Shown here one piece after another: positions 46,364 through 63,330 of a stretch of DNA of 64,000 nucleotides (positions are counted from its first letter, which is position 1; every line of letters starts with the position of its first letter). The notes beneath the pieces were generated by a model. It did no database searches. It saw only the letters and a program-made list of their open reading frames with translations, and was not told the origin of the DNA. This DNA is from Polaribacter reichenbachii. Its GTDB lineage: Bacteria > Bacteroidota > Bacteroidia > Flavobacteriales > Flavobacteriaceae. The stretch is taken from positions 4,061,015-4,125,014 of the forward strand of contig NZ_CP019419.1 of assembly GCF_001975665.1 (NCBI RefSeq), read 5' to 3'. Made by a program: the position numbers and the translations under genes.

Positions 46364-47638
46364 TTAATAAATATTAGTTTCTGATGTTCTTTGATTTATA
46401 GAACTTGCAAAAATTGCCAACATTCGTTTTGCAATCCCTGTCCAACCAAAATTTCTACGTGCAAAACGTGCGCCTTCTACAGACATTTCGTTTCTTAAAT
46501 CTGGATATAAAAGAGGCATTGCCATCATTGCTCCAAACTCTAAAGGTCTATGAGGGTCTGCAAACAAAGCCTGATTTCCGAAATCTATCAAATCGCATAA
46601 GCCCCCATGAACAGTAACTACACTTGGTGTACCACAAGCCATTGCTTCTATAGCAACCATACCAAAAGGCTCATATCTAGAAGGCATAGCAAAAATACTT
46701 GCAGATCTGTAGACATTAGCTAAATCATCATCTTCTATATAACTTTTCCATTTTATTTTATCCATAACACCAATTTCTGATGCTACCTTTTTTAGCTCAT
46801 TGATACCTTCTATATCTTGTTTAGAATCTCCACCAATGGCAGCCACTAATCTTGCTTCTGGGCACAATTCAAAAACCGTTGGTAAAGCATTTATCAATAA
46901 ATCATACCCTTTGTTATGTGCCATTCTTCCTAGTGCTAAAATATCAGTAGGATTAATATCATACTTTAATCTTATCTTATCATTTTCTTTTGATGGAACA
47001 GGAAAAAATCGATTTTCATCAATTCCTGGAGGAATCATACTGCAATTTCTTGCTAATACATCATATTGCTGAATTAACAAATCTACTTGAGGTAAAGTTG
47101 TAGCAATTACAAAATTACACATCTGATAAACAAAATATTCTTTTCGAATACGTTCTTTAAAGCGATAGGTTTTTTCCATTTCTACTTCGTCCATATCACT
47201 ACCCATAGTATGTTGTTTCCACCAACCTAAAGAATGAGGTGTATGCACATGACAAATACCTAATTCTTCTGCTATTTTTTGACCTGCCCAACCAGCATCC
47301 CAATAATGAGAATAAACAACGTCGTATTTTTTATTTTCTTTTTTTATTGCAGCTAAAGTATTAGTAACAAACTTTTTTAAATGATCATGCATGTCTTCTT
47401 TTCGGATGAATTTTTTACCACCAAAAGGAATTCTCCATACTTTAAAGTTTTCATTTACATCATCATATTCTGGCTGATCTTCAAATTGTCTTGTAACTAA
47501 ATCTACAGTTTTACCAAGTCTACTAAAACGTTCTGCTAATTCTAAAACATATACTACTTGTCCTCCTGTATCTGGTTTTCCTAATTCTGCATGCGCCCCT
47601 ACATATCCATGTAAAGAAATCATTAATATCGATTTCAT
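46364..47638 (-). CDS. GT4 glycosyltransferase, sucrose-phosphate-synthase-like
   Basis: A 424-residue cytosolic glycosyltransferase. The N-terminus ISLHGYVGAHAELGKPDTGGQ matches the donor/acceptor region of sucrose synthase and sucrose-phosphate synthase, and HVHTPHSLGWWKQ is also characteristic. The C-terminal half has the GT4 signatures LALGRMAHNKGYDLLI and SRYEPFGMVAIEAMACGTPSVVT with the catalytic EX7E. It would transfer glucose from a nucleotide sugar, plausibly to fructose 6-phosphate. It lies 24 bp downstream of a gene whose N-terminal domain looks like the matching sucrose-phosphatase. Other disaccharide products are possible. Confidence 0.82.
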   Translation of the reverse strand: MKSILMISLHGYVGAHAELGKPDTGGQVVYVLELAERFSRLGKTVDLVTRQFEDQPEYDDVNENFKVWRIPFGGKKFIRKEDMHDHLKKFVTNTLAAIKKENKKYDVVYSHYWDAGWAGQKIAEELGICHVHTPHSLGWWKQHTMGSDMDEVEMEKTYRFKERIRKEYFVYQMCNFVIATTLPQVDLLIQQYDVLARNCSMIPPGIDENRFFPVPSKENDKIRLKYDINPTDILALGRMAHNKGYDLLINALPTVFELCPEARLVAAIGGDSKQDIEGINELKKVASEIGVMDKIKWKSYIEDDDLANVYRSASIFAMPSRYEPFGMVAIEAMACGTPSVVTVHGGLCDLIDFGNQALFADPHRPLEFGAMMAMPLLYPDLRNEMSVEGARFARRNFGWTGIAKRMLAIFASSINQRTSETNIY

Positions 47639-47662
47639 CTTTCTATTTTTAAGTTCTACTAT

Positions 47663-49762
47663 TTAGTTTTTAGTGTTATTTTTATTTAATTTTAAATCAT
47701 GATAAGCAGAAATATATTGAGCTGCAGACCAAGCTTGGTAGGCTTTACCCATTGGTTTACCTGTTACACCATGTGCCCATTCTGTAAATTCCCATTCATG
47801 ATTAATACCTTCTTTATTAATTAAAGCTAGTTTGTGTAACTCTGCAATTGCAACATCTCTAAAGCCTAATTTGTTTACGAATTTTACCCAAAACCCACCA
47901 ACAAAAGGCCAAATACCTCCATTGTGATAATGATTAGGTAAGTTAAGTAGGTTTACAGTGTAATAAGGTCTCCAATCTGGGTCTCCAGGACTTACAACAG
48001 GATACACGTTTGCTACAGGAAATGGATCATTTACACCAACACCTAACATAAATTTAAAAGTTTGATGCGCTTTTTCTGCATCTATTGTACCGTGTAAAAA
48101 AGCTAGAATGTTTCCAAGAGTATCACATCTCCAAGAAAAATCGAAAGGCGTGGTTTGTGCAATTAAATAAGAAGTGTCTCCTAAAGTAAATTGCTTTTCT
48201 GCAAAAGAAACTGAGGTAAATAGTTGCTGTTGTGTAGATGGCCAAAAATTAGTAACAATCTCTTTTTTAATTACTTGAGACCATCTAATATATTCACCTG
48301 CTTCTTCATGGTTACCTAACATTTCTAACATTCTACCAAAACAAACATTAGATCTGTACCATAAAATTTCATCGTATAAAATATTATAGCTTCTACCAAA
48401 TAAATCTGTCCAATCTCCAGCTTCAGGAATTTCTAAAAGTGCATCATTATTACTATCATGGGCACCCAACCAACGCATTGTTTCTTTAATATCACCTATA
48501 TATTTTCTTAAAAAGTCGATATCTTTAGTAACATTTACATATTCATAAAAAGCGATAACTACCCAAATTCCGCTATCAATAGAACAAATACCTCCTACAC
48601 CTGAATAATCTGGAGTATTGTCTTTTATTCTTACGTTTGATGGAATTTGACCATTTCTAGAAATGTGTTCTAAAAGTGTTAGTAATGTTTGTCTTTGGCA
48701 ATCATGAATTTCTTTATCATGAATTAAAGATAATGAGCCAATTACAGTAATTGCACCATCTCTTGCCCAAACACTGTAATAATTTTCATCTGTACCATGT
48801 GCTACATTATCTTTTATAGAACAAGCAGAAAATCCAAGTGGCGTTATATTTTTCTTTAAAGCCTCGACCGCTTTTACATAACCTTCTTGAATTAATGCCA
48901 ATTGCTCATCACCATCCTCAGAGGCTATATTATCTAATTCTTTTTGAATGTAGAAATCATCTGAATGATCTATATAAGTTTCTTTAATAGCCTCTTCTGG
49001 TAAAATCTTATAATAAATTAAACCTTCTATAATTCCGTTACCTTTTTCTTTTTCTGTGTGATAAACTTTTTTGTGTTTTGTGTAGTTATACAACTCTTCG
49101 TGCGCATTAGAAACTACAATACCATATACATTTTTTAAATCGAACATTGCAGAATCATTACCACTATCTCCAGCTACTAAAACTTGATTGGTTTTTATTT
49201 TTAATCTTCTTAATAACCATTCTAGTGCATTTCCTTTATTTGCCCATTTAGGTAATATATCTAAAAATTTATTGCCAGAATAAACTACATTTACATCCAT
49301 ATCTGCATCCCAAAATCTTTGAGAAACACTTTCAATTAATTCATCGCCTGCATTATGAAAAAAGTAGCTTCTTTTATAGCTATGTTGAAATTTACTAGGC
49401 TGCTCACTAATAGGATGATCTAGACTGTACATAATACTTTCTACAGATTCTAGATTCCAGCCATCATCTAAAATATCGTTAAATTCTTTTACTAATGCCC
49501 CTTTTTTGTAATCGTAAATATGTGTACCAACACCCGAAATTATATAATCTGGTTTAGGCAAAACACCTTTATCAATTAAACCTAAAACATCATCTATTAA
49601 CCTACCTGTGTTATACGTTAGAATTACGTCTAAATCACTCGCATACTTTATCCAAGTTTTTGTAAAATTACTTTTAAATGTATGGAAATCGATAAGGGTA
49701 TTATCGATATCAAAAGATAATAATTTAATATTGTTTTTTAAATTTGAGCTGTTCTCTATCAT
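47663..49762 (-). CDS. HAD-IIB sucrose-phosphatase-like domain fused to invertase/glucosidase-like domain
   Basis: A 699-residue fusion. Residues 1-250 are a HAD-IIB phosphatase: motif I DIDNT (18-22), motif II TYNTGR, motif III lysine in NKG (175-177) and motif IV GDSGND (198-203), as in sucrose-6-phosphate phosphatase. Residues about 290-690 form a likely (alpha/alpha)6 glycosidase domain (YYSVWARDGAITVIG; EAGDWTDLFGR; FSWRCDTLGNILAFL; HNGGIWPFVGGFW), closest in flavour to GH100 invertase or GDE-type glucosidases. Upstream in the same unit as the glycosyltransferase. The two activities would dephosphorylate and then cleave or remodel the sugar; substrate assignment is inferred. Confidence 0.8.
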   Translation of the reverse strand: MIENSSNLKNNIKLLSFDIDNTLIDFHTFKSNFTKTWIKYASDLDVILTYNTGRLIDDVLGLIDKGVLPKPDYIISGVGTHIYDYKKGALVKEFNDILDDGWNLESVESIMYSLDHPISEQPSKFQHSYKRSYFFHNAGDELIESVSQRFWDADMDVNVVYSGNKFLDILPKWANKGNALEWLLRRLKIKTNQVLVAGDSGNDSAMFDLKNVYGIVVSNAHEELYNYTKHKKVYHTEKEKGNGIIEGLIYYKILPEEAIKETYIDHSDDFYIQKELDNIASEDGDEQLALIQEGYVKAVEALKKNITPLGFSACSIKDNVAHGTDENYYSVWARDGAITVIGSLSLIHDKEIHDCQRQTLLTLLEHISRNGQIPSNVRIKDNTPDYSGVGGICSIDSGIWVVIAFYEYVNVTKDIDFLRKYIGDIKETMRWLGAHDSNNDALLEIPEAGDWTDLFGRSYNILYDEILWYRSNVCFGRMLEMLGNHEEAGEYIRWSQVIKKEIVTNFWPSTQQQLFTSVSFAEKQFTLGDTSYLIAQTTPFDFSWRCDTLGNILAFLHGTIDAEKAHQTFKFMLGVGVNDPFPVANVYPVVSPGDPDWRPYYTVNLLNLPNHYHNGGIWPFVGGFWVKFVNKLGFRDVAIAELHKLALINKEGINHEWEFTEWAHGVTGKPMGKAYQAWSAAQYISAYHDLKLNKNNTKN

Positions 49763-50693: not shown

Positions 50694-51776
50694 TTATTGA
50701 AGTAAGCTGTATACAAATTCTGGATGACCACGTTCTCCATCAGCATTTGTTAATGCTAAAAACTTTAACTTGTAAAGATTACCATCTGTATCATTAACAA
50801 CATAAAAAACATTGTCTTTTAAAGAAGGTAAACTTCCTGGTCCACCACCATTTCTCCAACTACTTCCTATACTTCTTTGGTCTGTTGTAAAATTTGCTGT
50901 TGCAAGATCTGCCAAAGTAAAATCATCATAAGTAAAAGCATCTACATCTGTATCTATCATATATACTTGTGCGTCTGCTTTTGTGTTATTCGTAATAAAA
51001 TCAGAATATCCGTAAGAACCATAGCCTTCTATTTCGTTTGTAAAAACAGTAAAGTTTAAATCCCAGTTTTGTTTTACTGGCTCTACACTTGCTTCTGCAT
51101 CAGAATTAAAACTAAAAAAAGTAAAATTATAAGCCGAGTTTTTAGCAATAGTTACTTCGTTATAAGTTGTTGCATCTAAATCTGCATATTGTAAAACATA
51201 ATCAGATCCACTTTTTAGAATTCTAATTTTTTTCCATCCTCTAGAATCACCTGAAATAGCTACACTTCCTGTTTCTGGAATATCTGTACCAACTTCATAT
51301 CCTAAGTTTAGTAAATACACATTATTATTTGCATCATTATCAGAAATTTCTGCAATTGCTGTTTCTGTTATTGTACCATTTGGTGCATCTACATAAGCTG
51401 TGTTTGCTGCATCAAAAGTACCAACTGCAACTTTTGGTTGTAATTCTCGTACTTCTGCTGTTGTAGAATTTACTGCATTTATATCCGTAGAAGATAATTG
51501 AGCAACTGCCATATAAAGTGATCCATTTAATACTACTCTAAACTCTGAACCAGAGTAAAAACCAAGATCCCAAGAATCTCGTTTTATAGCTGTTGTTGTA
51601 CTTGTACTTAAGTCTACATAAACTTGGTTTGGTTGGTTTGGTCCACCAACTTCTGGTGCTATTGATGCTCCATCAATTACTACAACTATGGGTTCTGTTG
51701 GTGCATCATCATCATTACAGCTTGTAAAAGAAAATACTGCAATACATAAAATAAAAGTTAAGAATTTGTTTGTCAT
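50694..51776 (-). CDS. HmuY-like haem-binding lipoprotein
   Basis: A 360-residue lipoprotein: signal MTNKFLTFILCIAVFSFTSC with lipobox Cys at about 20, then an acidic linker. The body has the HmuY pattern of two similar halves, each with a DSWDLGF/QNWDLNF-type block (TAIKRDSWDLGFYSG; VEPVKQNWDLNFTVF). The final GHPEFVYSLLQ is also typical. In Porphyromonas HmuY takes haem and passes it to the receptor HmuR. Haem ligands cannot be assigned here. It follows the TonB receptor after 11 bp, so they form an operon that fits the HmuYR scheme in reversed order. Confidence 0.82.
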   Translation of the reverse strand: MTNKFLTFILCIAVFSFTSCNDDDAPTEPIVVVIDGASIAPEVGGPNQPNQVYVDLSTSTTTAIKRDSWDLGFYSGSEFRVVLNGSLYMAVAQLSSTDINAVNSTTAEVRELQPKVAVGTFDAANTAYVDAPNGTITETAIAEISDNDANNNVYLLNLGYEVGTDIPETGSVAISGDSRGWKKIRILKSGSDYVLQYADLDATTYNEVTIAKNSAYNFTFFSFNSDAEASVEPVKQNWDLNFTVFTNEIEGYGSYGYSDFITNNTKADAQVYMIDTDVDAFTYDDFTLADLATANFTTDQRSIGSSWRNGGGPGSLPSLKDNVFYVVNDTDGNLYKLKFLALTNADGERGHPEFVYSLLQ

Positions 51777-51787
51777 GATTATTTAAA

Positions 51788-53914
51788 TTAAAAATTAAGA
51801 TTATATAATAGTTTTAAGTAATAAGATTTGCCATAGCCAAGTAATAGTGCACTATTATCTGTAGAATGAATACCTTCTGAATTCGTGCCACTAACATTTA
51901 CGTTAACAACATCGAAAAGATTTCTACCTCCTAGAGTTACTTGGATTTTGTTTTTTAAAAATGATTTTTTTACTGAAGCATCTAACCAGTTATAAGCAGC
52001 TGTAGTAGATTTTGTAAAAATTGAATTACCATCTGTATCTACACTAGAAGACACATAATTTTGTTGTTTACCATTATGTTTTAGTAAAACTGTTAAGGCT
52101 GTTTGCCATTTTTTGATGTTGTAAGTTGCACTTGTATTTAATTGAAAAGAATACAAAAAATCATCTTCTACATTGGCTTCATTTTCAGATACTCTAGATA
52201 TTCCTTGTAAAGTAGCTCCTAAATTAAATGTCCACACATCTTTTTTAAAGCTGTTAGTAGTGGTAATACCCCAAAGTTTATAACTATCAATATTTATGTA
52301 TTGATATTGTAGAGGAATTGTATTAACAATAGCCAAATCAATTTTATCAGAAACATCTAAATAGCTAATTTTTAAACTATTTAGCACAGAAACATCATTT
52401 ATATAACTGTATTTTTTTAGGTTGATAAATGCTGTAAATCCGTTTTCTGGATTCAAATTTTCATTACCTCTAACATCATGGTTAGAGTCTACAAAATAAT
52501 AATAGAGTTCTTCAAAATTAGGTGTTCTGTAAGAAGTACCAATATTACCACGTAGTTCAAATCCATTTTTCATTAAGTAACGTGCACTTAAAGAACCTAA
52601 AACTTTCGATTTAAATAAGGAATTATATTCGTATCTAATTCCTGGTCTTAACGTAAATTTATCTGAAAATTTATATTCAGCAGAACCAAAAACAGCAAAA
52701 TTATTTTGTGACTGTTCCTTATCTTCTCCAGTAATTTCGCCAGAAGATTCTGTATCAAAACCAGTTATAAAACGAGTTTCATAACCCAATTGAAAATTAA
52801 ATTTATCACTTTTTACAAGGTTGTTAATATTACCTCTAGAAAAGAATACTTTACTAGATTGATAAGTTTCATCGGTTTCATTACTTCTTTCTTTACTTAA
52901 AATAAAGTAGTTAAACTCATTTAAATTTCTTTTTTGTTCTTGATAAGAAAGAGCAAAATTATAATTAGCTCCAGAATTTAATTGACCAATAAAATTTAAG
53001 TTATTTACAAATCTATTGGTTGTAAAAATTTTGTCTGTCGAGGAAGGATTACTCGTTTGTGAAGCAACATCTATATTAGCTCTTACAGCAGCATCGTAAT
53101 AATTAATTAACTCATTAAAATATTCGAACTTATAAAAAAACTGAAATTTTTCTTTACGATATTGTACAAAAGCGTTTGTGTTTACTTGTTCTTTTGGCAA
53201 CCAATCATAACCTCTTAAACCATCATTTTCGTAATAATTAGCACCTTGTCTGCCATTATAAAAACCAGCAAAATCATTTCTATTTATACCTAATCTTACT
53301 AACCAATTATCAGCAACTTGATTCGCTATATTTAAAGATTGTATATGCCTACCTTCATCAAACAATGCATATTCTTTACTAACAGTTTCTTCTTGTATAG
53401 CAGCTCTAATTTGCCAATCATTATCTATATTTTTTTTAGTGATAATGTTTATAACTCCAGAAACTGAATTAGCTCCATATTCTACACCCATTGCACCTTC
53501 AACAATTTCAATACGCTCTATATCATCTAAATTAATCTGGGTTAAATCGATGTTATTTCCTAAACCTGTATCACTTACTAAAGGAATGTTATCTACTAAA
53601 ATATTAAAGTATTGAGCATCTAAGCCAAAAAATGAAATGGTAGATTTCCCTGTTTGAGAACTTGGTATTATTGTTAAGTTTAAATTAAAATTTAATAAAT
53701 CTGCTAAACTATTTGCTGCCTGATTTTCTATTTGCTCTCTTTTTATAACAATTACATTATGTACAGATTTTTTAATAGACCTTGGATTATATTGGCCAGT
53801 AACCACAACCTCCTCTAGTTCAGTAATATTAGTAGAGTCTTTTTTTTGCTCTTGGCTAAATACAACCAAGTTTATCAATAAGAAAAAAAGTATATATTTG
53901 TTATTTAGAAACAT
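51788..53914 (-). CDS. TonB-dependent receptor (HmuR-like)
   Basis: About 708 residues from the ATG at 53914, which sets a signal peptide (YILFFLLINLVVFSQ). The upstream in-frame ATG at 53956 lies inside the promoter element and is rejected. The plug domain has ELEEVVVTGQYNPRSIKKSVHNV (TonB-box region) and EIVEGAMGVEYGANSVSGVINIIT. A barrel with PEARRGNxx-like region NIGTSYRTPNFEELYYYF and ending YYLKLLYNLNF follows. It imports a large ligand with TonB energy. Its pairing with the HmuY-like gene suggests haem. It is the first gene of the leftward pair. Confidence 0.87.
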   Translation of the reverse strand: MFLNNKYILFFLLINLVVFSQEQKKDSTNITELEEVVVTGQYNPRSIKKSVHNVIVIKREQIENQAANSLADLLNFNLNLTIIPSSQTGKSTISFFGLDAQYFNILVDNIPLVSDTGLGNNIDLTQINLDDIERIEIVEGAMGVEYGANSVSGVINIITKKNIDNDWQIRAAIQEETVSKEYALFDEGRHIQSLNIANQVADNWLVRLGINRNDFAGFYNGRQGANYYENDGLRGYDWLPKEQVNTNAFVQYRKEKFQFFYKFEYFNELINYYDAAVRANIDVASQTSNPSSTDKIFTTNRFVNNLNFIGQLNSGANYNFALSYQEQKRNLNEFNYFILSKERSNETDETYQSSKVFFSRGNINNLVKSDKFNFQLGYETRFITGFDTESSGEITGEDKEQSQNNFAVFGSAEYKFSDKFTLRPGIRYEYNSLFKSKVLGSLSARYLMKNGFELRGNIGTSYRTPNFEELYYYFVDSNHDVRGNENLNPENGFTAFINLKKYSYINDVSVLNSLKISYLDVSDKIDLAIVNTIPLQYQYINIDSYKLWGITTTNSFKKDVWTFNLGATLQGISRVSENEANVEDDFLYSFQLNTSATYNIKKWQTALTVLLKHNGKQQNYVSSSVDTDGNSIFTKSTTAAYNWLDASVKKSFLKNKIQVTLGGRNLFDVVNVNVSGTNSEGIHSTDNSALLLGYGKSYYLKLLYNLNF

Positions 53915-53923
53915 TCTTAATAA

Positions 53924-53986
53924 TTTTCGACAAATATATATCTTATTTTTAATCAATCTAAATAAATTTTATATTTTTGTCGAAAA
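53924..53986. promoter_or_regulatory. Mirror-image divergent promoter with 11-bp inverted repeat
   Basis: TTTTCGACAAA (53924-53934) and TTTGTCGAAAA (53976-53986) are perfect inverted copies 41 bp apart. Each covers part of a Bacteroidota -7 box: TATATTTG on the minus strand (plus 53931-53938) and TATTTTTG on the plus strand (53972-53979). The motif thus sits at the same place, over the -7 and transcription start, of both divergent promoters. This looks like a shared operator for a repressor or co-activator; which regulator is unknown. Confidence 0.65.
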
Positions 53987-54011
53987 TAAATATTATTTAA
54001 ATAAATCATAA

Positions 54012-54914
54012 ATGAAAAAACTAGTACTAACATGTTTAATATGCATTGTTACAATTGCAGTAAATGCACAAAGCAAAAAAACAAAAGACAAAAACGCTAT
54101 TAAAGAAATGTGTGGTTGTTTTGAGGTAACTTTTAATTTTACAGAAACTTTTAATTATAGCAAAGATGAAAACTATAAGCCTTCTAAAACAAAGATTGAT
54201 AAAGGTCTAGAATGGGCTGGTTTGGTTGTAGATGATAACAACAAAATTTCTATTCAACACTTATTACAAGTGGGTAACCCAGCTAAACCTATGATTATAA
54301 AACATTGGAGACAAGATTGGTTGTATCAAAACACAGATTTTTATATGTATAATGGCGATAATAATTGGACATTTAAACAAAAAGACAAAAAAGATGTAAA
54401 GAAACAATGGACGCAGAAAGTATATCAAGTAGATGATAGCCCAAGATACGAAGGTTCTGGAACTTGGGTACATGTAGATGGAAAAAGTTATTGGGAAAAC
54501 ACAACTACAGCACCTTTACCAAGAAGAGAATACACAAAAAGAAGCGATTACAACATAACATTAAGAGGTAACAGACACCAAATTACAGATTATGGATGGG
54601 TACATGATCAAGATAATAGTAAAATAATTCGCAAAGCTGGTAAAGATGATATAATTCTTGCCAAAGAAAAAGGATACAATACTTATAAAAGGGTTGCAGA
54701 AAGCAAATGTAAAGCTGCTGCAAATTGGTGGATTGCTCATAATGATAAATGGCAATTGGTTAGAAATAAATGGGCAGAAGTTTATGGTAGAAATAAAGAT
54801 TTAACTTTAGAAACAAAAGTAGATAACAAACCACTTTACAAACATTTATTTGCTGATGAAGTAACTAAAGAACAAGAAATGAATACAATAATTGAATCAT
54901 TTGTAAAAAAATAA
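54012..54914 (+). CDS. DUF6607-like exported protein
   Basis: A 300-residue protein with a signal peptide (MKKLVLTCLICIVTIAVNAQ). Recognisable DUF6607-like blocks are EMCGCFEVTFNFTETF, ISIQHLLQVGNPAKPMIIKHWRQDW, GSGTWVHVDGKSYWENTTTAPLPRREYTKRSDYN and a WWIAHNDKWQLVRNKW end. It is Trp-rich with a pair of N-terminal Cys (MCGC). The function of the family is unknown. It heads the rightward set of five genes and shares a divergent promoter region with the TonB receptor. Involvement in haem or iron handling is inferred from context. Confidence 0.72.
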   Translation: MKKLVLTCLICIVTIAVNAQSKKTKDKNAIKEMCGCFEVTFNFTETFNYSKDENYKPSKTKIDKGLEWAGLVVDDNNKISIQHLLQVGNPAKPMIIKHWRQDWLYQNTDFYMYNGDNNWTFKQKDKKDVKKQWTQKVYQVDDSPRYEGSGTWVHVDGKSYWENTTTAPLPRREYTKRSDYNITLRGNRHQITDYGWVHDQDNSKIIRKAGKDDIILAKEKGYNTYKRVAESKCKAAANWWIAHNDKWQLVRNKWAEVYGRNKDLTLETKVDNKPLYKHLFADEVTKEQEMNTIIESFVKK

Positions 54915-54917
54915 ATA

Positions 54918-56396
54918 ATGAAAAGTTCTCAAAAAATATCAATCTTATTATTTCTGATTAGTTTCAGCGCTTTTGCACAACAAAAAAATATTTTTCACGA
55001 TAGAAGTTTTTGGCAATCTAAACCAAGTATAGCAACTATAGATCAAAAAATAGCAGAAGGTAATGATATCGAAAAATCGAATATAAATGCTTTTGATGCA
55101 ACTGTTTACGCTATTAACGCTAAAGCTGATGATGACGTAATTAAATATATTATAGCAAAAAACAACAACAAAGTAAATAAACTTACTCATGATGGTAGAA
55201 CTTATTTACATTGGGCTGCTTACAGTGGTAAATTAGAAATTATGAAATATTTAATTTCTAAAGGCGCAAAAACCGATGTTGTAGATACACATGGTAATAC
55301 ATTTTTAAATTTTGCTGCTTCTTCTGGGCAAAACAATCTAGAAATTTACAAATATGGTATAAAAGCTGGTGCAGACATTACCAAAGAAAAAAATCATGAT
55401 GGTGCTAATGCATTACTTTTAGTTGCTTCTCAATTAAAAGATTTTAAAATTGTAGATCTTTTTGTTGCAAATGGTGCTTCTTTAAATGATAAAGATGACT
55501 ATGGAAATGGCTTTTTTGAATATGCTGCAAAAGGTGGAAACACTCAATTTTTATCAACTTTAATTGATAAAGGAATTGATACTGGTAATAACGCAATGAT
55601 TTTTGCAAGTCAAGGTTCTAGAAGAAAAAGCAACACTTTAGCTACGTATCAATTTTTAGCAGATAAAGGAATTAAGGTTAATGTTATAGATCATGAAAAC
55701 AGAAATCCTTTACATTTAATTGCTAGAAATAATAAAGACATTAATATCTATAAATTCTTTTTAGATAAAGGTGTAGACGTAAATTTACAAGATAATGAAG
55801 GTAATACTCCTTTTATGATTGCTGCAAATGGTGGTAACTTAAAAGTTGTAGAATTTTTAGCTAAAGATGTAAAAAATATCAACCTAAAAAATAAAAAAGG
55901 TAATACTGCATTAACCAATGCTGTTGGTAGAAATTCTGCTGAAGTTGTTACTTTTTTAATTGAAAAAGGTGCTGATATTAATACTTTAGACAAAGATGGT
56001 AATACACTTTCTTACTACTTAATTAATAGTTTTGGTGGCAGAAACAAAGATGCTTTCGAAACAAAATTAAAGGTTTTAGAAAAAAACGGATTGGTTATAA
56101 ACAAACCACAAAACTCTGGTAACACTTTATTACATATTGCTGCAACCGAAAATAATTTAGCTTTATTAAAAAGATTGGCTAGCTTTAATATTGATGTAAA
56201 TGCAAAAAATAAAGAAGGTATAACAGCTTTACAAATTTCAGCAATGAAAGCCAAAGATGATAAAATCATAAAATACTTATTAAGCATTGGAGCAGACAAA
56301 AACATTAAAACAGATTTTGATGAAACTGTATATGATTTAGCATCAGAAAACGAATTATTAAAAAAACAAAACGTAAATATTAGCTTTTTAAAATAA
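54918..56396 (+). CDS. Exported ankyrin-repeat protein
   Basis: A 492-residue protein with a signal peptide (MKSSQKISILLFLISFSAFAQ). After a short leader there are about ten ankyrin repeats with the usual DGRTYLHWAAYSG, DNEGNTPFMIAANGG, NKKGNTALTNAVGRN and GNTLLHIAAT helix-turn signatures. The repeats run to the C-terminus, so it is a pure scaffold. Periplasmic ankyrin proteins are less common than cytosolic ones. It lies 3 bp after the DUF6607-like gene and 4 bp before the DUF2271-like gene, an operon. It may hold partners of the redox/haem proteins together. Confidence 0.87.
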   Translation: MKSSQKISILLFLISFSAFAQQKNIFHDRSFWQSKPSIATIDQKIAEGNDIEKSNINAFDATVYAINAKADDDVIKYIIAKNNNKVNKLTHDGRTYLHWAAYSGKLEIMKYLISKGAKTDVVDTHGNTFLNFAASSGQNNLEIYKYGIKAGADITKEKNHDGANALLLVASQLKDFKIVDLFVANGASLNDKDDYGNGFFEYAAKGGNTQFLSTLIDKGIDTGNNAMIFASQGSRRKSNTLATYQFLADKGIKVNVIDHENRNPLHLIARNNKDINIYKFFLDKGVDVNLQDNEGNTPFMIAANGGNLKVVEFLAKDVKNINLKNKKGNTALTNAVGRNSAEVVTFLIEKGADINTLDKDGNTLSYYLINSFGGRNKDAFETKLKVLEKNGLVINKPQNSGNTLLHIAATENNLALLKRLASFNIDVNAKNKEGITALQISAMKAKDDKIIKYLLSIGADKNIKTDFDETVYDLASENELLKKQNVNISFLK

Positions 56397-56400
56397 GAAG

Positions 56401-56895
56401 ATGAAAACGAAAAGAACCCTATTAATATTGCCAGTTGTATTGTTAATGATAACTGCTTTATTTAGTTTTAAAAAATACTCAGGAAGTTCGCCATATAAAT
56501 GTATGATTCAAATGAAAAATTATACAGGTGAAGGTGCATATATTGTAATTTCATTATTAAATCCAGAAGGTAAATATGAAGAAACTTTATATGTACAAGG
56601 TGATGATGATGAATGGTATTTTGATATTACAGAATGGTGGAATTTTCAAGGAAAAAAACGTGCTGATATAGACGCAATTACAGGCGCAACTATTAGTGGT
56701 GGAGAGCGCTCTATAAGCGTAATTCAAATTCCTGATGATAAATTAAACCAAGGCTATAAACTTCGATTTGAAACAGCTGTAGAAGATAAAGACTATTATA
56801 AAGATGATGTTGAGTTTGAGCTAACTTCAGATAACATAAAATCTAAAATAGAAGGTAAAGGCTTTATTCGTTACATAAGAATGATACCTCAATAA
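56401..56895 (+). CDS. DUF2271-like exported protein with flavinylation-type motif
   Basis: A 164-residue exported or membrane-anchored protein. Residues 5-23 are hydrophobic (LLILPVVLLMITALF). The rest is a beta-rich domain of the DUF2271 type (NYTGEGAYIVISLLNPEGKY; DEWYFDITEWWNF). Residues 91-100 read DAITGATISG. TGATIS fits the covalent-flavin consensus (S/T)GA(S/T)x(S/T) recognised by ApbE transferases, the modified residue being the last S/T (S99). I infer an extracytosolic flavoprotein that takes electrons from the next gene's reductase. No apbE is in the window. It is in a tight operon, 4 bp after the ankyrin gene. Confidence 0.75.
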   Translation: MKTKRTLLILPVVLLMITALFSFKKYSGSSPYKCMIQMKNYTGEGAYIVISLLNPEGKYEETLYVQGDDDEWYFDITEWWNFQGKKRADIDAITGATISGGERSISVIQIPDDKLNQGYKLRFETAVEDKDYYKDDVEFELTSDNIKSKIEGKGFIRYIRMIPQ

Positions 56896-56911
56896 CTTAC
56901 CTAATTAACAG

Positions 56912-56962
56912 CAATTCCACTGATTAACCAGAATTGATTTAATTAACAAATTGGTGGAATTG
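56912..56962 (+). terminator. Hairpin with 33-nt loop before the reductase gene
   Basis: CAATTCCAC (56912-56920) pairs with GTGGAATTG (56954-56962), followed by TTTTAT. It may be a partial terminator or attenuator inside the operon, so the reductase may be made at a different level from the genes before it. Confidence 0.35.
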
Positions 56963-56994
56963 TTTTATAAAACACAGTCAGAACTAACACTTTT

Positions 56995-59193
56995 ATGACA
57001 ATTTCTATTTGGAGATATAGCCATTTAACTTTGGCAATATCTACTGCCCTATTTATTATAATCGCTTCAATTACAGGAATAATTTTAGCTTTTGAACCTA
57101 TTTCTAATAAGCTACAACCTTATTCACCTGCAAATATTGAGCAAATTACTGTTGCAGAAACTGTAGGTGTTTTATCAAATAAATATGATGAAATAATTAC
57201 CTTAGAAATTGATGAAAATAATTTTGTTAGTACATCTGTAGTTACAAAAGAAGGTAAAAGTGAAACCTTTTACATTAACCCAAAAACAGGAGAAAAAGTT
57301 GGTGATATTATAGAAAAAGCACCAATTTTTGAATTTGCAACCAATTTACATAGATCTTTATTTTTAAAATCTACAGGCCGTTTTCTTATTGGTTTTGTAT
57401 CTTTTTTACTTTTATTAATTGCCATTTCTGGTGTAGTTTTAATAGCAAAAAGACAAGGTGGCTTTTTAAAGATTTTCTCTAAAATAGTTAAAGAAGATTT
57501 TAATCAATATTATCATATAATTTTAGGTCGATATTTTTTAATTCCGATTATAATTATCACAATAACTGGTGTTTATTTATCCTTAGAAAAATTTTCTTTG
57601 TTACCAAAGGATAAAAATATACATCAACAAAACTTAGCTTTTAACAATGAAGCTTCAAAACTAAAAACTACTGATTTTGATTTTTTCCAAAAAACAAAAT
57701 TGGCAGATGTAACTAGTTTAGAGTTCCCTTTCTCTTCAGATGAGGAAGATTACTTTTATGTAAAAACTGTAGATAATGAATTAGCTATTCATCAATTTAA
57801 TGGACAAATTGTAAGCAACAAAAAACAATCTTTAACTAGTTTAGGGTCTTATTATAGTTTGATTTTACACACAGGGCAAGGTTCAATTTTATGGTCTATT
57901 GTTTTACTTTTAGCCTGTTTTACTATTCTTTTCTTTATCTTTTCTGGTTTTTCTTTAACTCTTAAAAGAAGAAAAAATACATCAGTAATAAAAAATAAGT
58001 TTTATAAAGATGAAGCAGAATTTATAATTTTAGTAGGTTCAGAAACAGGGAGCACGTATAATTTTGCAACTGTATTTTATAAAGCCTTATTAACATCAAA
58101 TAAAACTGCTTTTATATCAGATTTAAATAGCTATACAACTTACAAAAAAGCCAAAAATATCATAGTTTTTACTGCTACTTATGGAGATGGAGAAGCGCCT
58201 GTAAATGCCACTAAATTTATTAATAAGTTTAATCAAATTATACAAAAAAACACCATCCAATTTTCTGTAATTGGTTTTGGTTCTACTGATTATCAAGCTT
58301 ACTGTAAGTTTGCAATTTTAGTGCATTCTACAATGCAATTACACAAGAAATTTGTACCTGTTTTACCAATTTTCAAAATTGATAATCAGTCTTTTTCTGC
58401 TTTTGAAAATTGGTTAAAAGAGTGGAACTCTTATTACAGATTAAATTTACATATTAACAAAGAAGATTTAGATAAAAATAAACCAAAAGAGCAAATATTT
58501 AGAGTTATTAATAAAACTGAATTAAACTGCGATAATACTTTTTTAATTGAACTAAAACCCTCTAAAAAACTAAAATTTACTTCTGGAGATTTACTATCTA
58601 TCACCCCAAAAAACGAAAATAAAAATCGTTTGTATTCTATAGCTAAAGTAAATGGGAATATATTATTGAGCATTAAAAAACACGAATTTGGTGTTTGTTC
58701 TAATTATTTGAAATTTGTAAATAAAAATGATAAAATTGTAGCTTCTATTGTTAAAAATGATAGTTTTCATTTTCCTGATAAAGCTAAAGAAATTATCTTA
58801 ATTGCAAATGGAACAGGAATTGCTCCATTTTTAGGAATGATTAGTAAAAATAGTAAAAAGAAGATTCATTTGTTTTGGGGAGGAAGAACTAAAGAATCTT
58901 TAAAAATTTATCAAAATAAGATTGAGCATGCTATAGAAAATAAAAGTTTAACTTCTTTCCATTCTGCTTTTTCACAAGAACAAAAAGAGAAATTTTATGT
59001 TCAAGATCTTTTAACAAATCATTCAGAATTAATTGCAAAGACTTTAAGAAATGGAGATGAAATTTTAATTTGTGGTTCTTTGGCTATGCAAAGAGGAGTT
59101 ATATCTGCATTGAATACTATTACTGAAAAATCGTTAAAAACATCAATTAAAAAGTATCAAGAGAATCATCAAATTAAAACAGATTGTTATTAA
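56995..59193 (+). CDS. PepSY membrane domain fused to flavodoxin and FAD/NAD(P)H reductase
   Basis: A 732-residue inner-membrane redox fusion. Residues 1-330 are a PepSY-type membrane module with four helices. Conserved His at H10, H119, H174 and H292 are positioned like haem b ligands. Residues about 342-480 are a flavodoxin domain (ILVGSETGSTYNFA, FTATYGDGEAP). Residues about 490-732 are a ferredoxin-reductase-like module with FAD site RLYSIAK and NAD(P) site GTGIAPFLGMI, GGRTKESL and CGSLAMQRGV. It would carry NAD(P)H electrons across the membrane. Related proteins reduce siderophore iron or periplasmic flavoproteins. Confidence 0.88.
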   Translation: MTISIWRYSHLTLAISTALFIIIASITGIILAFEPISNKLQPYSPANIEQITVAETVGVLSNKYDEIITLEIDENNFVSTSVVTKEGKSETFYINPKTGEKVGDIIEKAPIFEFATNLHRSLFLKSTGRFLIGFVSFLLLLIAISGVVLIAKRQGGFLKIFSKIVKEDFNQYYHIILGRYFLIPIIIITITGVYLSLEKFSLLPKDKNIHQQNLAFNNEASKLKTTDFDFFQKTKLADVTSLEFPFSSDEEDYFYVKTVDNELAIHQFNGQIVSNKKQSLTSLGSYYSLILHTGQGSILWSIVLLLACFTILFFIFSGFSLTLKRRKNTSVIKNKFYKDEAEFIILVGSETGSTYNFATVFYKALLTSNKTAFISDLNSYTTYKKAKNIIVFTATYGDGEAPVNATKFINKFNQIIQKNTIQFSVIGFGSTDYQAYCKFAILVHSTMQLHKKFVPVLPIFKIDNQSFSAFENWLKEWNSYYRLNLHINKEDLDKNKPKEQIFRVINKTELNCDNTFLIELKPSKKLKFTSGDLLSITPKNENKNRLYSIAKVNGNILLSIKKHEFGVCSNYLKFVNKNDKIVASIVKNDSFHFPDKAKEIILIANGTGIAPFLGMISKNSKKKIHLFWGGRTKESLKIYQNKIEHAIENKSLTSFHSAFSQEQKEKFYVQDLLTNHSELIAKTLRNGDEILICGSLAMQRGVISALNTITEKSLKTSIKKYQENHQIKTDCY

Positions 59194-59204
59194 AATGTAA
59201 GAAT

Positions 59205-59558
59205 ATGTGTCAGAATTCTAGAATAATATCAAGTGTAAAAAATGGAGAACTAGCTGTTTGTAATGGTTGTAAAAATTATGCATTAACGTTTAATAATGTC
59301 TATTTTCAATTTGATAAAAATCAACTTTTAGAATTCAGAAAATATATTGCAAATATAGATGTTGATTATTGGCAAGAATATTATGCTTACACTTCTAAAA
59401 AGAGAAAAATACCAGTAACCACTTTACATCAAAATTTAATTTTGATTTTTAGTTTAGAAGAAATTGAAGATTTAAAGACATTGTTATTATTGAAAGAAAA
59501 TTCTAAAAATGAATTTATATCTCTAGAACAAATTAACTATCCTTTTATTCTAAATTAA
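59205..59558 (+). CDS. DUF6686-like small protein
   Basis: About 117 residues from the ATG at 59205 (MCQNSRIISS), just after the reductase stop; an upstream ATG would overlap the reductase. The pattern ELAVCNGCKNYALTFNNVYFQF with a CxxC is typical of DUF6686-like proteins in Bacteroidota. No signal peptide. The CxxC plus the N-terminal Cys might bind metal, but no further Cys are present. It is the last gene of the locus and ends at an intrinsic terminator. Function unknown. Confidence 0.72.
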   Translation: MCQNSRIISSVKNGELAVCNGCKNYALTFNNVYFQFDKNQLLEFRKYIANIDVDYWQEYYAYTSKKRKIPVTTLHQNLILIFSLEEIEDLKTLLLLKENSKNEFISLEQINYPFILN

Positions 59559-59786: not shown

Positions 59787-60713
59787 TTAACTTTTTACAA
59801 ATCTTTTGATAGTTTTACCCTTATTAGTTTCTACTAGTGTAAAATATTGTCCTTTTGATAAATTATGAACATTTACTCTATTAGAAGTTTCATCTAAAAT
59901 TAATTGACCTTTGATATCATATACTTTAACACTTTTCAAAACTATATTTTGTGGTATATTAATTAGAAGTTCATAAACTACAGGGTTAGGATAAACTTTA
60001 ATAATAGATTCGATATCAAAATCATTAATATATAATACCCCAATATTAAAACCTTGCCAGTTTATTGAACTCGAGTATGTTGCAACACTTTCATTTGGAA
60101 CAGATAAATTAATATTAGCAAGTACTAAACCTTCAAATGAATTTGCATTTAATGTTGGTGGTGTAGTTGCTAAACTACTTACGTTAAGCAATGAGTTACA
60201 ATAAGCAAAAGCTTCACTTCCTACAGAAGTTAATCCACTTCCAAAATTAATCTCTGCTAAATCTGTATTGGCAAAAAAAGCTACATTATCTATTGTAGTT
60301 ACAGAGTTTGGAATAGTTACACTGGTTAATCCTGTTTTATAAAACGCACCTATTCCTATATAAGTTAAGCCTTCTCCAAGACTAACAGAAGTTAACAAAA
60401 TATTATTTGCAAAAGCATCATTAGAAATACTTGTTACAGTATTGGGTAAAGAAATACTAGATATAGATGATACTGCTGCATCACCTTGAGCAAAAGCCCA
60501 TCCTTTTAAAGAAATTACAGTATATGTATTTGTTCCATCTGTTACTGTTTCTGGAATAACAATATCTCCTGTTAGTTCGTTATTACTACCTACTTGGGCT
60601 GTCATTGTAATATTGCTTACTACTTCGTAATTAATTCCACCATCTTTAAATTGGGCGAAAGCTGTATTACAAATTAGTGCGAATAACACATAAATAAAAT
60701 AAATTTTTCTCAT
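59787..60713 (-). CDS. BspA-like leucine-rich-repeat T9SS protein
   Basis: A 308-residue secreted protein. It has a signal peptide (MRKIYFIYVLFALICNTAFAQ), then about five LRR_5/BspA-type repeats of about 23 residues (SISLPNTVTSISNDAFANN; SVTIPNSVTTIDNVAFFAN; INFGSGLTSVGSEAFAYC). A type A T9SS sorting domain follows (KVYPNPVVYELLINI to YFTLVETNKGKTIKRFVKS). Surface proteins with this layout bind host or matrix polymers. Short compared with many BspA proteins. It is alone, with no promoter recognised. Confidence 0.88.
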   Translation of the reverse strand: MRKIYFIYVLFALICNTAFAQFKDGGINYEVVSNITMTAQVGSNNELTGDIVIPETVTDGTNTYTVISLKGWAFAQGDAAVSSISSISLPNTVTSISNDAFANNILLTSVSLGEGLTYIGIGAFYKTGLTSVTIPNSVTTIDNVAFFANTDLAEINFGSGLTSVGSEAFAYCNSLLNVSSLATTPPTLNANSFEGLVLANINLSVPNESVATYSSSINWQGFNIGVLYINDFDIESIIKVYPNPVVYELLINIPQNIVLKSVKVYDIKGQLILDETSNRVNVHNLSKGQYFTLVETNKGKTIKRFVKS

Positions 60714-60833: not shown

Positions 60834-62027
60834 TTATTTTAGTTTTTCTTGAACTTGTTTATAGTTTTTTTTACAAAATAATTCAATAGTTTCTTTTAGT
60901 AATTCTGAAATAGTATCATTATTATTTTGAATGGCATCATGAATTTCTTTAGCCAACTCAAATTTTAATGAATTCTCTTTGATATTTGTTCCTTTTAATT
61001 TGTTAACATGTTTTGCTGTTTTTGTTAAATACTGATAACCGTGTTCTAAGCTTGGTTCAATCTCAGTACCTTCATTCCAATCATTCCATGTTTCTAACAC
61101 CACATAATCCATAGGTATTTTTCCTTGGTAATTATGTATATAGTTCCAAGTATCATCAAACACTTTTCCATTTTGTCTACTAATTAACCTGTTTCCTCCC
61201 CAAGAAGTATTTTTTCTATCATCAAAGCCTGCCCATACACCACCAACTACAAAACTGGATTTTGTTTCAAAGGTGTTTACCTCATCATAGAAATAGTTTA
61301 AATAGTCTTTACCCCAATTAAGCCCTTTCTCGTCCCATTCACCTCCTGGTTGCACCCAAGGATAAAAAGCATTTACATAAGGTTGAACTTCTTCTCCTTC
61401 TCCAAAGGTATTCCAGATTAAATACGGTTTATTATTTTTAAATACGGAATCAATAACTGTACTAAAACTCTTTGCTGTCAAAAACTTTTTAGGATAATCA
61501 AAAGAGAAAAACAATGGATGTTTTTTATGATACAAATAGTTTTTTCTTTTCATTATATTCTCTTTAAAATCTTTCATTTTTATAAAAGTTGTATCTAAAG
61601 GTTCTTCCAAATCAAATCCCTGATCATCATAACTAATTAAATATTTTAGATTAAAGTTCTCTTTAGATATAGATTGCAACTCATCTATGGTATTAAATAA
61701 TTCTACCATAGTTTCATAATCGTATTTATCTTTTATATTAATGGCAATAGCATCTATACCAGATAACCAAGCCAATAGAGTATGATAGACTAAAGTAGCT
61801 TTGCTTTTAGAATTATATGCTCCAATAATTGGTGTATTTGCATAACCATGTTCCCAATGCCTCAGCTTTTTATTTGATGCATTTTTATCAGAATACCATC
61901 CCATATAATGAACAATCACCTTTGTTGAATTTTTTGCCAAGTTACTTTTTGTAATTTTTGATTTGGTATTATCAACACAGTTAAACAAAAACATACATAA
62001 ACAAACAACTATTATCGAATTTTTCAT
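60834..62027 (-). CDS. GH99/GH71-like lipoprotein, copy 2
   Basis: About 397 residues from the ATG at 62027, which gives a lipoprotein signal (VVCLCMFLFNC); the upstream frame would overlap the preceding gene. The barrel resembles the GH99/GH71-like family: VIVHYMGWYSDKN, AWLSGIDAIAINIKD, SYDDQGFDLEEP and the C-terminal catalytic-type block ETWNDWNEGTEIEPS. Family members cleave alpha-mannan or alpha-1,3-glucan; the substrate here is unknown. A Lys-rich helical tail follows. It starts 13 bp after copy 1, so they are in one operon and arose by tandem duplication. Confidence 0.82.
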   Translation of the reverse strand: MKNSIIVVCLCMFLFNCVDNTKSKITKSNLAKNSTKVIVHYMGWYSDKNASNKKLRHWEHGYANTPIIGAYNSKSKATLVYHTLLAWLSGIDAIAINIKDKYDYETMVELFNTIDELQSISKENFNLKYLISYDDQGFDLEEPLDTTFIKMKDFKENIMKRKNYLYHKKHPLFFSFDYPKKFLTAKSFSTVIDSVFKNNKPYLIWNTFGEGEEVQPYVNAFYPWVQPGGEWDEKGLNWGKDYLNYFYDEVNTFETKSSFVVGGVWAGFDDRKNTSWGGNRLISRQNGKVFDDTWNYIHNYQGKIPMDYVVLETWNDWNEGTEIEPSLEHGYQYLTKTAKHVNKLKGTNIKENSLKFELAKEIHDAIQNNNDTISELLKETIELFCKKNYKQVQEKLK

Positions 62028-62040
62028 TACTCTTTTAGTA

Positions 62041-63330
62041 TTAAGAACCTGATATAATCTCCTCTGCCAACTCATACGCTTTTTGCCCATTAGTTTTTAA
62101 ATAATGACCAATAGACTCTTCCAAAACTGGATAATATGTATTATAATCTCTATCACCATTTTCTATTAATTTTGCAGCTTCATAAATTCTTATTGGAGCA
62201 CCAAACATCCATTTTTCTGAATCAACCAAAGTTGGTTCTCCTTTGTAAGTTGAGATATGATTTGCTGTTAATTCAATATATTGATAATTACCAGACCCTT
62301 TTACTGGCTCAATTTCAGATCCTTCATTAAAATCATTCCATGTTTCAAGAATAACCCAGTCAATTTCACCTGGATGTGTATCGTTTATAAGTGCCCAAGT
62401 ATCATTGTAAGTTTCACCATTTCTACGATCTATCCATCGTCCTTGTCCCCAAGATGCGTTTCTATCATCAAAACCAGGCCAAACCGCACCAGTAACAAAT
62501 TCCACTTTATTGTTTAATTTAAAATCTATTTGTGTGTTGTAAAACCAATTCATGTAACCTTCTCCCCAAGCCGAACCATCATCTGCCCAACCTTGTACCC
62601 AAGGATAAATAGAATTCATTACAAATTGACCAGGAATAGCACCTAAATCCAATTCATTTTTTAATAAAATTGGTGTGTTTTCTGTAAAAACTAAATTAGC
62701 TACATCTCTATAATCTTGTGATGTTAAGTATCCATCATAATTCCAAATAAAAATAACTGGTTCTCCATCTTTATGTAAATAATGATTAGTATTTGGAATT
62801 ATATTATCTTTTAAATCTGTAAACTCTGCAATTGCAGAAGCTGATGTTGCATCTTGATCGTCGTAACTAACAGAAATATCATATTCAAATTCAGGATAAA
62901 TTGCATCAATACGCTCTATAGACTCTACAAATTTCTCAAAAGACAACTGATCATAATCTGTTCTAACATTAATTACAGCACCATCTATACCAACAGCAGC
63001 AGATAATAAAATATGATACATATGTGTAGCCCAAGAATCTGAACTATAATAACCAATTAGAGGTTGGTTTACGGTACCATCTGCCCAATGATTTCCTTGC
63101 TCACCTTCGCTAAACCAAGGCAAGTAATGCATATACACTTTTTCTTGTACTGTTGATGGTTTACCTACTTCAAAGGTTTCATTTAAAGGTAATATAGTTC
63201 CACTGTTAGGAATATCATTTGCTCCTGGATCATACCTTCTATCTCCATCATCACTTTCACAAGATAATAATGTAACTATTGAGATAATTAGTATAAGCCC
63301 AACTTTTTGTTTTAATATTTTTAAACTCAT
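62041..63330 (-). CDS. GH99/GH71-like lipoprotein, copy 1
   Basis: A 429-residue lipoprotein with signal (LILIISIVTLLSC, lipobox LLSC) and an acidic Asp/Gly linker. The glycosidase-like domain has VYMHYLPWFSEGEQ, SAAVGIDGAVINVRT, SYDDQDATSA, YPWVQGWADDGSAWGEGYMNW and ETWNDFNEGSEIEPV, parallel to copy 2. It would act on an external or periplasmic polysaccharide at the outer membrane. No SusC/SusD pair is in view. It is the first gene of the pair. Confidence 0.82.
   Translation of the reverse strand: MSLKILKQKVGLILIISIVTLLSCESDDGDRRYDPGANDIPNSGTILPLNETFEVGKPSTVQEKVYMHYLPWFSEGEQGNHWADGTVNQPLIGYYSSDSWATHMYHILLSAAVGIDGAVINVRTDYDQLSFEKFVESIERIDAIYPEFEYDISVSYDDQDATSASAIAEFTDLKDNIIPNTNHYLHKDGEPVIFIWNYDGYLTSQDYRDVANLVFTENTPILLKNELDLGAIPGQFVMNSIYPWVQGWADDGSAWGEGYMNWFYNTQIDFKLNNKVEFVTGAVWPGFDDRNASWGQGRWIDRRNGETYNDTWALINDTHPGEIDWVILETWNDFNEGSEIEPVKGSGNYQYIELTANHISTYKGEPTLVDSEKWMFGAPIRIYEAAKLIENGDRDYNTYYPVLEESIGHYLKTNGQKAYELAEEIISGS

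Follow-up and report, generated by a model that had tools for sequence, protein, structure and literature searches.

How do bacteria that capture haem at the cell surface release the iron it holds, and could a haem uptake locus supply the electrons for that step? The question is raised by seven genes at positions 50694 to 59558 of a stretch of Polaribacter reichenbachii DNA (the window), which comprises the terminal 64 kb of a one-contig 4.1-Mb genome (NZ_CP019419.1, 4,061,015 to 4,125,014). There, genes for an HmuY-family lipoprotein and a TonB-dependent receptor diverge from a tight row encoding a DUF6607 protein, an ankyrin-repeat protein, a DUF2271 protein, a PepSY-flavodoxin-reductase fusion, and a DUF6686 protein. 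An earlier reading of the letters alone (the sequence-only reading) had proposed a haem or iron uptake system with a dedicated trans-membrane electron chain, undescribed as a whole. Profile searches recovered the seven genes, their families, and their divergent arrangement at the positions it had given, with all named domains exceeding the curated Pfam cut-offs. With a probability of roughly 60%, we favor the explanation that this is a RhuH/HmuY-type haem uptake system with its own XusC/FoxB-type reductase module, which would reduce haem or its iron in the periplasm.

The haemophore and its divergent partners

DUF6607 had been considered a family without assigned function, a view that a structural match now replaces. 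The product of the gene (54012..54914, plus strand; 300 residues; PF20311, E = 4.8e-95) matched PDB entry 8xjc, named a 'haemophore', over the full length, both as a single protein (phmmer, 2.2e-88) and as a profile of 50 rows, made up of this locus's protein and 49 from a pool of 100 relatives. Its AlphaFold2 model, with a predicted local distance difference test (pLDDT) score of 94.5, superposed on 8xjc with template modeling scores of 0.86/0.93 at 47% identity, and nitrobindin-type haem barrels were among the far weaker fold matches. In RhuH of Riemerella anatipestifer, His96 is described as the iron ligand, while Arg143, Tyr144, Arg170, Arg183, and Gln198 grip the propionates in an AlphaFold3 model; mutation of His96 lowered haem affinity by about six orders of magnitude, and haem binding and extraction from haemoglobin were demonstrated for RhuH and three homologues (PMC11967795). 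The counterparts of these contacts here, H98, R145, Y146, R172, R185, and Q200, were invariant in 50 of 50 rows. Judged by sequence and predicted structure, DUF6607 belongs to the RhuH haemophore family. Its N-terminus resembles a signal peptide by eye, as does that of the ankyrin protein. An earlier candidate explanation, DUF6607 as a replacement for HmuS or a new dechelatase, was dropped as our leading one once the haemophore structure had been matched. A full-text search of open-licence papers returned none for DUF6607 and none for DUF6686.

In Riemerella, rhuH is reported to diverge from genes for a TonB receptor and a haem-binding partner, with a Fur-box promoter between them, and deletion of fur increased rhuH transcription (PMC11967795). 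The present locus has the same layout. Its receptor gene (51788..53914, minus strand) occupies the HfpR/RhuR position and encodes a barrel (PF00593, 1.9e-21) and a plug (PF07715, 2.1e-20); the Pfam query began at 53917 and was thus one residue over-long, and the start is most likely the ATG at 53914 rather than the TTG at 53956. The adjoining HmuY-family gene (50694..51776, minus strand; 360 residues; PF14064, 6.9e-29) is in the HfpY/RhuA position. Inspection of the lipoprotein's N-terminus revealed Cys20, present in 37 of 37 aligned rows and here directly followed by NDDD, which together resemble a surface-export signal of Bacteroidota. A second HmuY relative with a type IX secretion system (T9SS) tail is encoded elsewhere in the genome (L128:4-1254, minus strand, near C1:1184138-1184204), with two Fur-box-like sites upstream, and is 49% identical to a Kordia protein (L040:5064-6317). 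A Pfam search of the genome had missed this relative, so that its count of a single HmuY in this genome was discarded, and Pfam-based HmuY counts, including those of the class sample below, are lower bounds.

Two Fur-box-like palindromes, each with two mismatches to TTATTTAGAnTnAnTCTAAATAA and without assigned strand, mark the divergent region: the first (53901..53923) covers the receptor start codon and the second (53943..53965) lies 5' of the DUF6607 gene. Two matches to TTATTTAGAnTnAnTCTAAATAA in the 64-kb window compare with 0.08 expected. We then considered the 80 nearest of 110 relatives in named genomes, a set biased to close kin (the nearest-80 set), of which 79 were used after L025 had been dropped for its short DUF6607 frame. 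The 220 bp upstream of DUF6607 held at least one site in 72 of these 79 loci and at least two in 58, as opposed to 3 of 1580 shuffles, in a conservation test that is partly circular, the consensus having been drawn from the same loci. For that reason, the genomic count serves as the independent support: the whole genome contained 22 sites for TTATTTAGAnTnAnTCTAAATAA versus 10 for a control pattern. Sites outside the locus lie near genes for ferritin, feoB, two TonB receptors, the T9SS HmuY relative, sdh, and nqrA. These observations suggest that Fur may control both halves of the locus through two operators. A RhuH-family haemophore, an HmuY protein, a TonB receptor, and two Fur-box-like sites together back the haem or iron uptake that had been read from the letters.

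The reductase module and its linkage to rhuH

The five genes from 54012 to 59558 almost abut, with intergenic gaps of 3, 4, 99, and 11 bases. Behind rhuH follow three genes that we refer to as the triad: those for a predicted exported ankyrin-repeat protein (54918..56396, plus strand; 492 residues; PF12796 (Ank_2), 1.3e-71), a DUF2271 protein (56401..56895, plus strand; PF10029, 6.5e-40), and a fusion of PepSY_TM (PF03929, 1.8e-33), Flavodoxin_1 (PF00258, 2.4e-12), and NAD_binding_1 (PF00175, 3.6e-10) domains (56995..59193, plus strand). In the fusion, approximately four membrane helices are indicated by hydropathy within the first 330 residues, and His10, His119, His174, and His292 are present in 73 of 73 rows. 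FoxB has two haem sites with two conserved His per site, and His10 and His119 pair with His of FoxB in an alignment to structure 7abw that is itself weak (E = 0.017). The fusion is therefore predicted, from its four invariant His and its PF03929 domain, to be a FoxB/XusC-type inner-membrane NAD(P)H reductase with two bis-His b-haems. The DUF2271 protein is a predicted ApbE-flavinylated periplasmic electron carrier with the motif DAITGAT, in which Thr97 is found in 80 of 80 rows. One DUF2271 protein has been experimentally proven to be an ApbE substrate (PMC8238504). A Pfam scan detected neither ApbE nor DUF4198 among the cluster genes, and one ApbE gene is present elsewhere in the genome (G000:C1:1860326). 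With the TGAT motif and this ApbE, the protein probably carries a covalent flavin in this organism. The composition of the proposed NAD(P)H-to-periplasm chain is thus borne out.

The exported ankyrin protein is an almost constant companion of this reductase. Its gene stands beside a full-length PepSY reductase in 74 of 76 loci with RhuH and in 14 of 14 without, the exceptions being L098 and L101 in the nearest-80 set and L231 in the family survey described next.

The nearest relatives of the locus (Polaribacter loci first, with Polaribacter vadi L065 ranking highest for all seven genes at 84–94% identity) contained DUF2271 in 79/80, the PepSY fusion in 76/80, ankyrin in 74/80, and DUF6686 in 33/80. 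To offset the close-kin bias of this set, we surveyed an even sample of the family (149 genomes, 148 genera). DUF6607 was present in 55 of the 149 genomes. HmuY and a TonB receptor lay within 8.5 kb in 49 of these 55 loci, the receptor being divergent in 45, and the full ankyrin-DUF2271-PepSY triad was found in 28, 26 of which also had HmuY and the receptor. The linkage of the two halves, whose absence made up half of the refutation test set by the sequence-only reading, thus recurs in other genomes. DUF6686 was found in 11 of the 55. DUF6607 and DUF2271 co-occurred in 36 of the 149 genomes (Fisher 4e-11, kinship ignored; two sub-cut-off DUF2271 places, G390 and G425, were left out), and in 30 genomes the two lay on the same strand within 8 kb. 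A wider sample of 295 genomes of the class contained DUF6607 in 21 and HmuY in 108 at E 0.001 (105 above the cut-off), and 19 of the 21 DUF6607 genomes had HmuY (Fisher 2e-7, kinship ignored). In 17 of the 20 class-wide DUF6607 loci beyond the window's genome, HmuY and a receptor were nearby. It follows that rhuH, HmuY, and the receptor form the more widespread core, to which roughly half of the DUF6607 loci in the family add the reductase triad.

Within this core, the surface pair appears to be exchangeable. An HmuY-receptor pair accompanied DUF6607 in 76 of the nearest-80 loci, in two mutually exclusive versions with a long HmuY (37 loci) or an HmuY of about 210 residues (39 loci); neither occurred in L029, L069, L079, or L090, L079 having less than 1 kb of upstream sequence. 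The long/short label switches at least 13–14 times on supported branches of the reductase tree (see below), or 16–17 times by parsimony. In the sister pairs L049/L055 and L030/L042, DNA similarity of 82–85% breaks off ahead of the HmuY-receptor genes and is regained in roughly the first 65 bases of the receptor's reading frame, where the operator region lies, with the replaced cassettes lying at 7.0–9.9 kb and 6.7–9.9 kb, respectively. In a third pair, Kordia L040/L036, the cassette is inverted too and hence not a clean swap. By these comparisons, it looks as if the receptor-HmuY cassette has been replaced repeatedly beside a standing rhuH-reductase row. An extra TonB receptor of about 807 residues was detected by Pfam between rhuH and ankyrin in L169 (8227-10647); the same receptor was assigned by size and position in L030 and L042 (10.9–13.4 kb).

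The row ends with DUF6686 (59205..59558, plus strand; PF20391, 7.4e-42), a small accessory protein with no obvious signal sequence by eye and an AlphaFold2 model of middling confidence (pLDDT 74). Its start is most likely the ATG at 59205 (MCQN...) rather than 59184. Of 33 aligned rows, 28 have Cys2, 31 have Cys19, and all 33 have Cys22, the latter two in a Cys19-x2-Cys22 arrangement; a chosen set of 19 rows shows Cys2 and Cys19 throughout and Cys22 in nearly every row, and a three-Cys metal site is possible. The gene occurs 3' of the reductase, as in the window, directly 3' of rhuH (L159, L120), ahead of the receptor (L160, L166), and ahead of DUF2271-PepSY (L161), positions that associate it with haem loci. 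On a circular chromosome, a broken second copy with one internal stop (G000:C1:7697-7951, L152) would lie to the right of the window. Elsewhere, a 95-residue protein without a Pfam family is encoded directly before ferritin and behind a Fur-box-like site (L130:1541-1825); of its 108 matches, those that carry a name are almost all from Polaribacter, and one is labeled Paraglaciecola. Kinship of this protein with DUF6686 was suggested by blastp (E = 0.013) and rejected on a profile-profile probability of 1.4% and the lack of a Pfam match.

Electron acceptor and competing explanations

We propose that haem, bound by HmuY at the cell surface and by RhuH, which in Riemerella occurs outside cells and in vesicles, would be carried across the outer membrane by the TonB receptor. 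Electrons might be drawn from cytoplasmic NAD(P)H by the PepSY fusion, passing through flavin adenine dinucleotide (FAD) and then flavin mononucleotide (FMN), and could cross the inner membrane via the two b-haems to a covalent FMN on DUF2271. This carrier, for which the exported ankyrin protein may provide docking, would act in the periplasm on ferric iron that is still in the imported haem or on its way out of it, with haem rather than another ferric complex as the presumed acceptor. The resulting Fe(II) could enter the cytoplasm through FeoB, whose gene is present in the genome, and the two Fur-like operators would turn on both halves under iron shortage. Other candidates for the iron-freeing step were sought. 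CobN/HmuS (PF02514) had no matches in the genome and occurred in only 4 of the 295 class genomes versus 108 with HmuY; most HmuY carriers must therefore free the iron by a step other than HmuS. Haem oxygenase PF01126 likewise gave no match in the genome, a search that left out HugZ, IsdG, HemS, DyP, and haem ABC transporters.

The strongest competing explanation is that the triad is a general periplasmic reductase of ferric iron or ferri-siderophores that shares the Fur-controlled operon with rhuH solely for the sake of co-expression, haem entering the cytoplasm whole. We consider this possible, though on the unlikely side. In its favor, the PepSY proteins characterized in the cited reports reduce ferric iron that is either free or bound to a siderophore (PMC13142918, PMC8238504), and the triad is not confined to rhuH. 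We inspected 19 family DUF2271 loci away from RhuH, 14 of which hold a full-length PepSY-flavodoxin reductase, each with DUF2271 and ankyrin. In nine of the 19, the genes follow a TonB receptor of about 805 residues (Pfam-scanned in L179 alone of the nine, and outside them in L069) and a partner of 424–463 residues whose alignment matches DUF4374/XusB structures, PF14298 having matched 2 of 10 partners singly; in one of the nine, L187, only ankyrin and DUF2271 of the triad accompany the XusA/XusB-like receptor pair. L175 has the triad divergent from receptor-HmuY and without RhuH, and others have no adjacent receptor that was recognized. In Flavicella, a single row (L069:4792-14239) contains DUF6607, two DUF2271 genes, ankyrin, a Xus-like receptor and partner, and a PepSY reductase. 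The notion of a chain reserved for haem was rejected, since the triad also follows XusA/XusB-like receptors.

What speaks against a merely general reductase is the phylogeny. Among 87 reductases placed on a tree, one group with 99% support in the Shimodaira-Hasegawa-like approximate likelihood ratio test (SH-aLRT) united eight copies of the Xus type, four without a receptor, and one with HmuY only, apart from the RhuH-linked ones; L069, with both systems, L172, and the RhuH-linked L087, L101, and L102 were unresolved. The tree was built by a quick method, omits four short PepSY rows of 76 (L033, L066, L089, and L098), and holds none of the family-survey loci. Moreover, 28 of 55 genera retain the triad next to rhuH although the receptor cassette changes. 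Comparison of the copies indicates that the triad is a portable module, shared in kind with siderophore-type loci, and that the sampled siderophore-linked copies form a separate lineage. The 'dedicated' chain of the sequence-only reading therefore stands in part: the module travels with other receptors or alone, and its siderophore-linked copies nonetheless group apart from the haem-linked ones.

Several observations weigh against periplasmic reduction of haem by this module. The occurrence of the triad with other receptors or none means that haem may not be its acceptor. The full triad is absent from 27 of the 55 RhuH loci (3 hold part of it, and some lie near contig ends), which presumably still take up haem, and neither ankyrin nor DUF2271 was found beside DUF6607 in any of the 20 class-wide loci; haem uptake itself can thus do without the chain. 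In Riemerella, RhuH was reported from secreted fractions and from vesicles, with none detected in whole-cell extracts (PMC11967795), which speaks against its periplasmic action. Of the DUF2271 rows, 60 of 80 carry the strict [ST]GA[ST] motif and 20 depart from it, 19 reading GET and one SSAT. Across the 37 HmuY rows, no position apart from the start Met reaches 80% conservation as His or Met, while Tyr residues do; the expected iron ligands were thus not found here, and family membership rests on the PF14064 domain. In some HmuY proteins Met serves as an iron ligand. HmuY of Porphyromonas gingivalis binds haem iron via two His (PMC12106395), and ligation here may differ from it, given the lack of a conserved His or Met. 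To the circularity of the operator test is added that the neighborhoods of 10 of 15 sites were read, three of which (L127, L138, and L139) had no clear iron role.

A reductive route in aerobic marine Bacteroidota, free of both haem oxygenase and HmuS, would go further. Imported haem, which RhuH may hold within the periplasm, would be directly reduced by flavinylated DUF2271, with the ankyrin protein docking both; reduction would loosen the binding of iron in the haem, and Fe(II) would pass to FeoB. A RhuH that acts both as haemophore and as substrate carrier would account for the position of rhuH at the head of the reductase row, beside a freely swapped receptor-HmuY cassette. We regard this specific version, a weakened form of the dechelatase idea for DUF6607, as doubtful, and rated it lower still once the absence of Riemerella RhuH from whole-cell extracts had been weighed.

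Quite improbable is the proposal that the chain keeps haem or its binding partners ferrous, for hand-over or for protection from haem toxicity and oxidants, with the ankyrin protein acting as in catalase-linked ankyrin proteins. Its near constancy in the module fits this idea, as does Cj1386 of Campylobacter, a haemin-binding ankyrin protein. The Fur-box-like sites, in contrast, are common to ferritin, feoB, and TonB receptor genes, and neither catalase nor peroxidase was found by Pfam among the scanned cluster genes. Chance adjacency of two unrelated operons is refuted by the survey: the halves are separable, as class-wide rhuH with HmuY and receptor and no reductase illustrates, yet the triad lies beside rhuH in 28 of 55 genera and DUF6607 and DUF2271 co-occur as given above.

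The frequent pairing of haem capture with this chain points to a release of haem iron, in some of these bacteria, by reduction just inside the outer membrane. A haemophore locus with its own NAD(P)H-to-periplasm chain makes such a reductive step directly testable, and the common exported ankyrin protein gains a testable role. One reductase module is common to haem-type and siderophore-type uptake loci, and beside it the surface receptor pair has repeatedly been exchanged.

Genomic surroundings and known systems

Convergent to the operon lies a gene for a BspA-type leucine-rich repeat protein with a T9SS tail (59787-60713), unmatched in the 80 related loci. Two secreted-looking proteins follow (60834-63330) with weak WbsX and GH71 matches, the latter under its cut-off. 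Since these genes at the contig end are followed by SusC/SusD-like genes, identified by eye, at the contig start, the contig junction probably falls inside a glycan-use locus. On the other side of the locus (46364-49762), a glycosyltransferase with a sucrose-synthase-type domain adjoins a sucrose-phosphate phosphatase-glycosidase domain fusion.

The claim that the system as a whole was undescribed has to be narrowed, as its haem half is already published. RhuH-RhuR-RhuA of R. anatipestifer likewise combines a haemophore divergent from a receptor and partner, a shared Fur-box promoter, and the six haem contacts; the legend to that locus names only rhuH, rhuR, and rhuA (PMC11967795), while ankyrin, DUF2271, the PepSY reductase, and DUF6686 are added here. 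RhuA and the HmuY protein were matched by position, not by family comparison. HfpR/HfpY of Flavobacterium psychrophilum resembles the present locus in its TonB receptor and HmuY-family protein, which are iron-repressed, and differs in that a DoxX gene separates the two; its 19-kb hfp region is said to hold putative transmembrane electron-transfer proteins, so that a reductase near haem genes was hinted at by Zhu et al. in 2022 (PMC9331221). No open-licence full text combined HmuY, PepSY, and Flavobacterium, and in this search and those for DUF6607 and DUF6686 the triad was not found described as part of a haem system.

HmuYRSTUV of Bacteroides and Porphyromonas shares HmuY and its receptor, and periplasmic iron release under reducing conditions has been proposed for it; the physiological electron source of HmuS is left open in these accounts (PMC12583661, PMC13227078). 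Here, CobN/HmuS is lacking and an electron chain is encoded instead. PepSY-ApbE-DUF2271 systems have in common a PepSY cytochrome, a flavinylated DUF2271, and a link to iron uptake (PMC8238504, PMC11334425), whereas in P. reichenbachii ApbE is encoded elsewhere in the genome and the triad is joined to haemophores. XusABC of Bacteroides likewise consists of a TonB receptor, a surface lipoprotein, and a PepSY inner-membrane reductase, with XusC described as freeing siderophore iron by the reduction proposed (PMC13142918). In our locus the receptor and lipoprotein are of the haem type, HmuY occupying the place of XusB (DUF4374), whose relatives accompany the triad in other genomes; the PepSY fusion includes a flavodoxin as well as an NAD(P)H reductase domain, and proteins of the DUF2271 and ankyrin families come in addition. 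The closest kind of known system is thus XusC/FoxB-type reduction, here attached to haem uptake.

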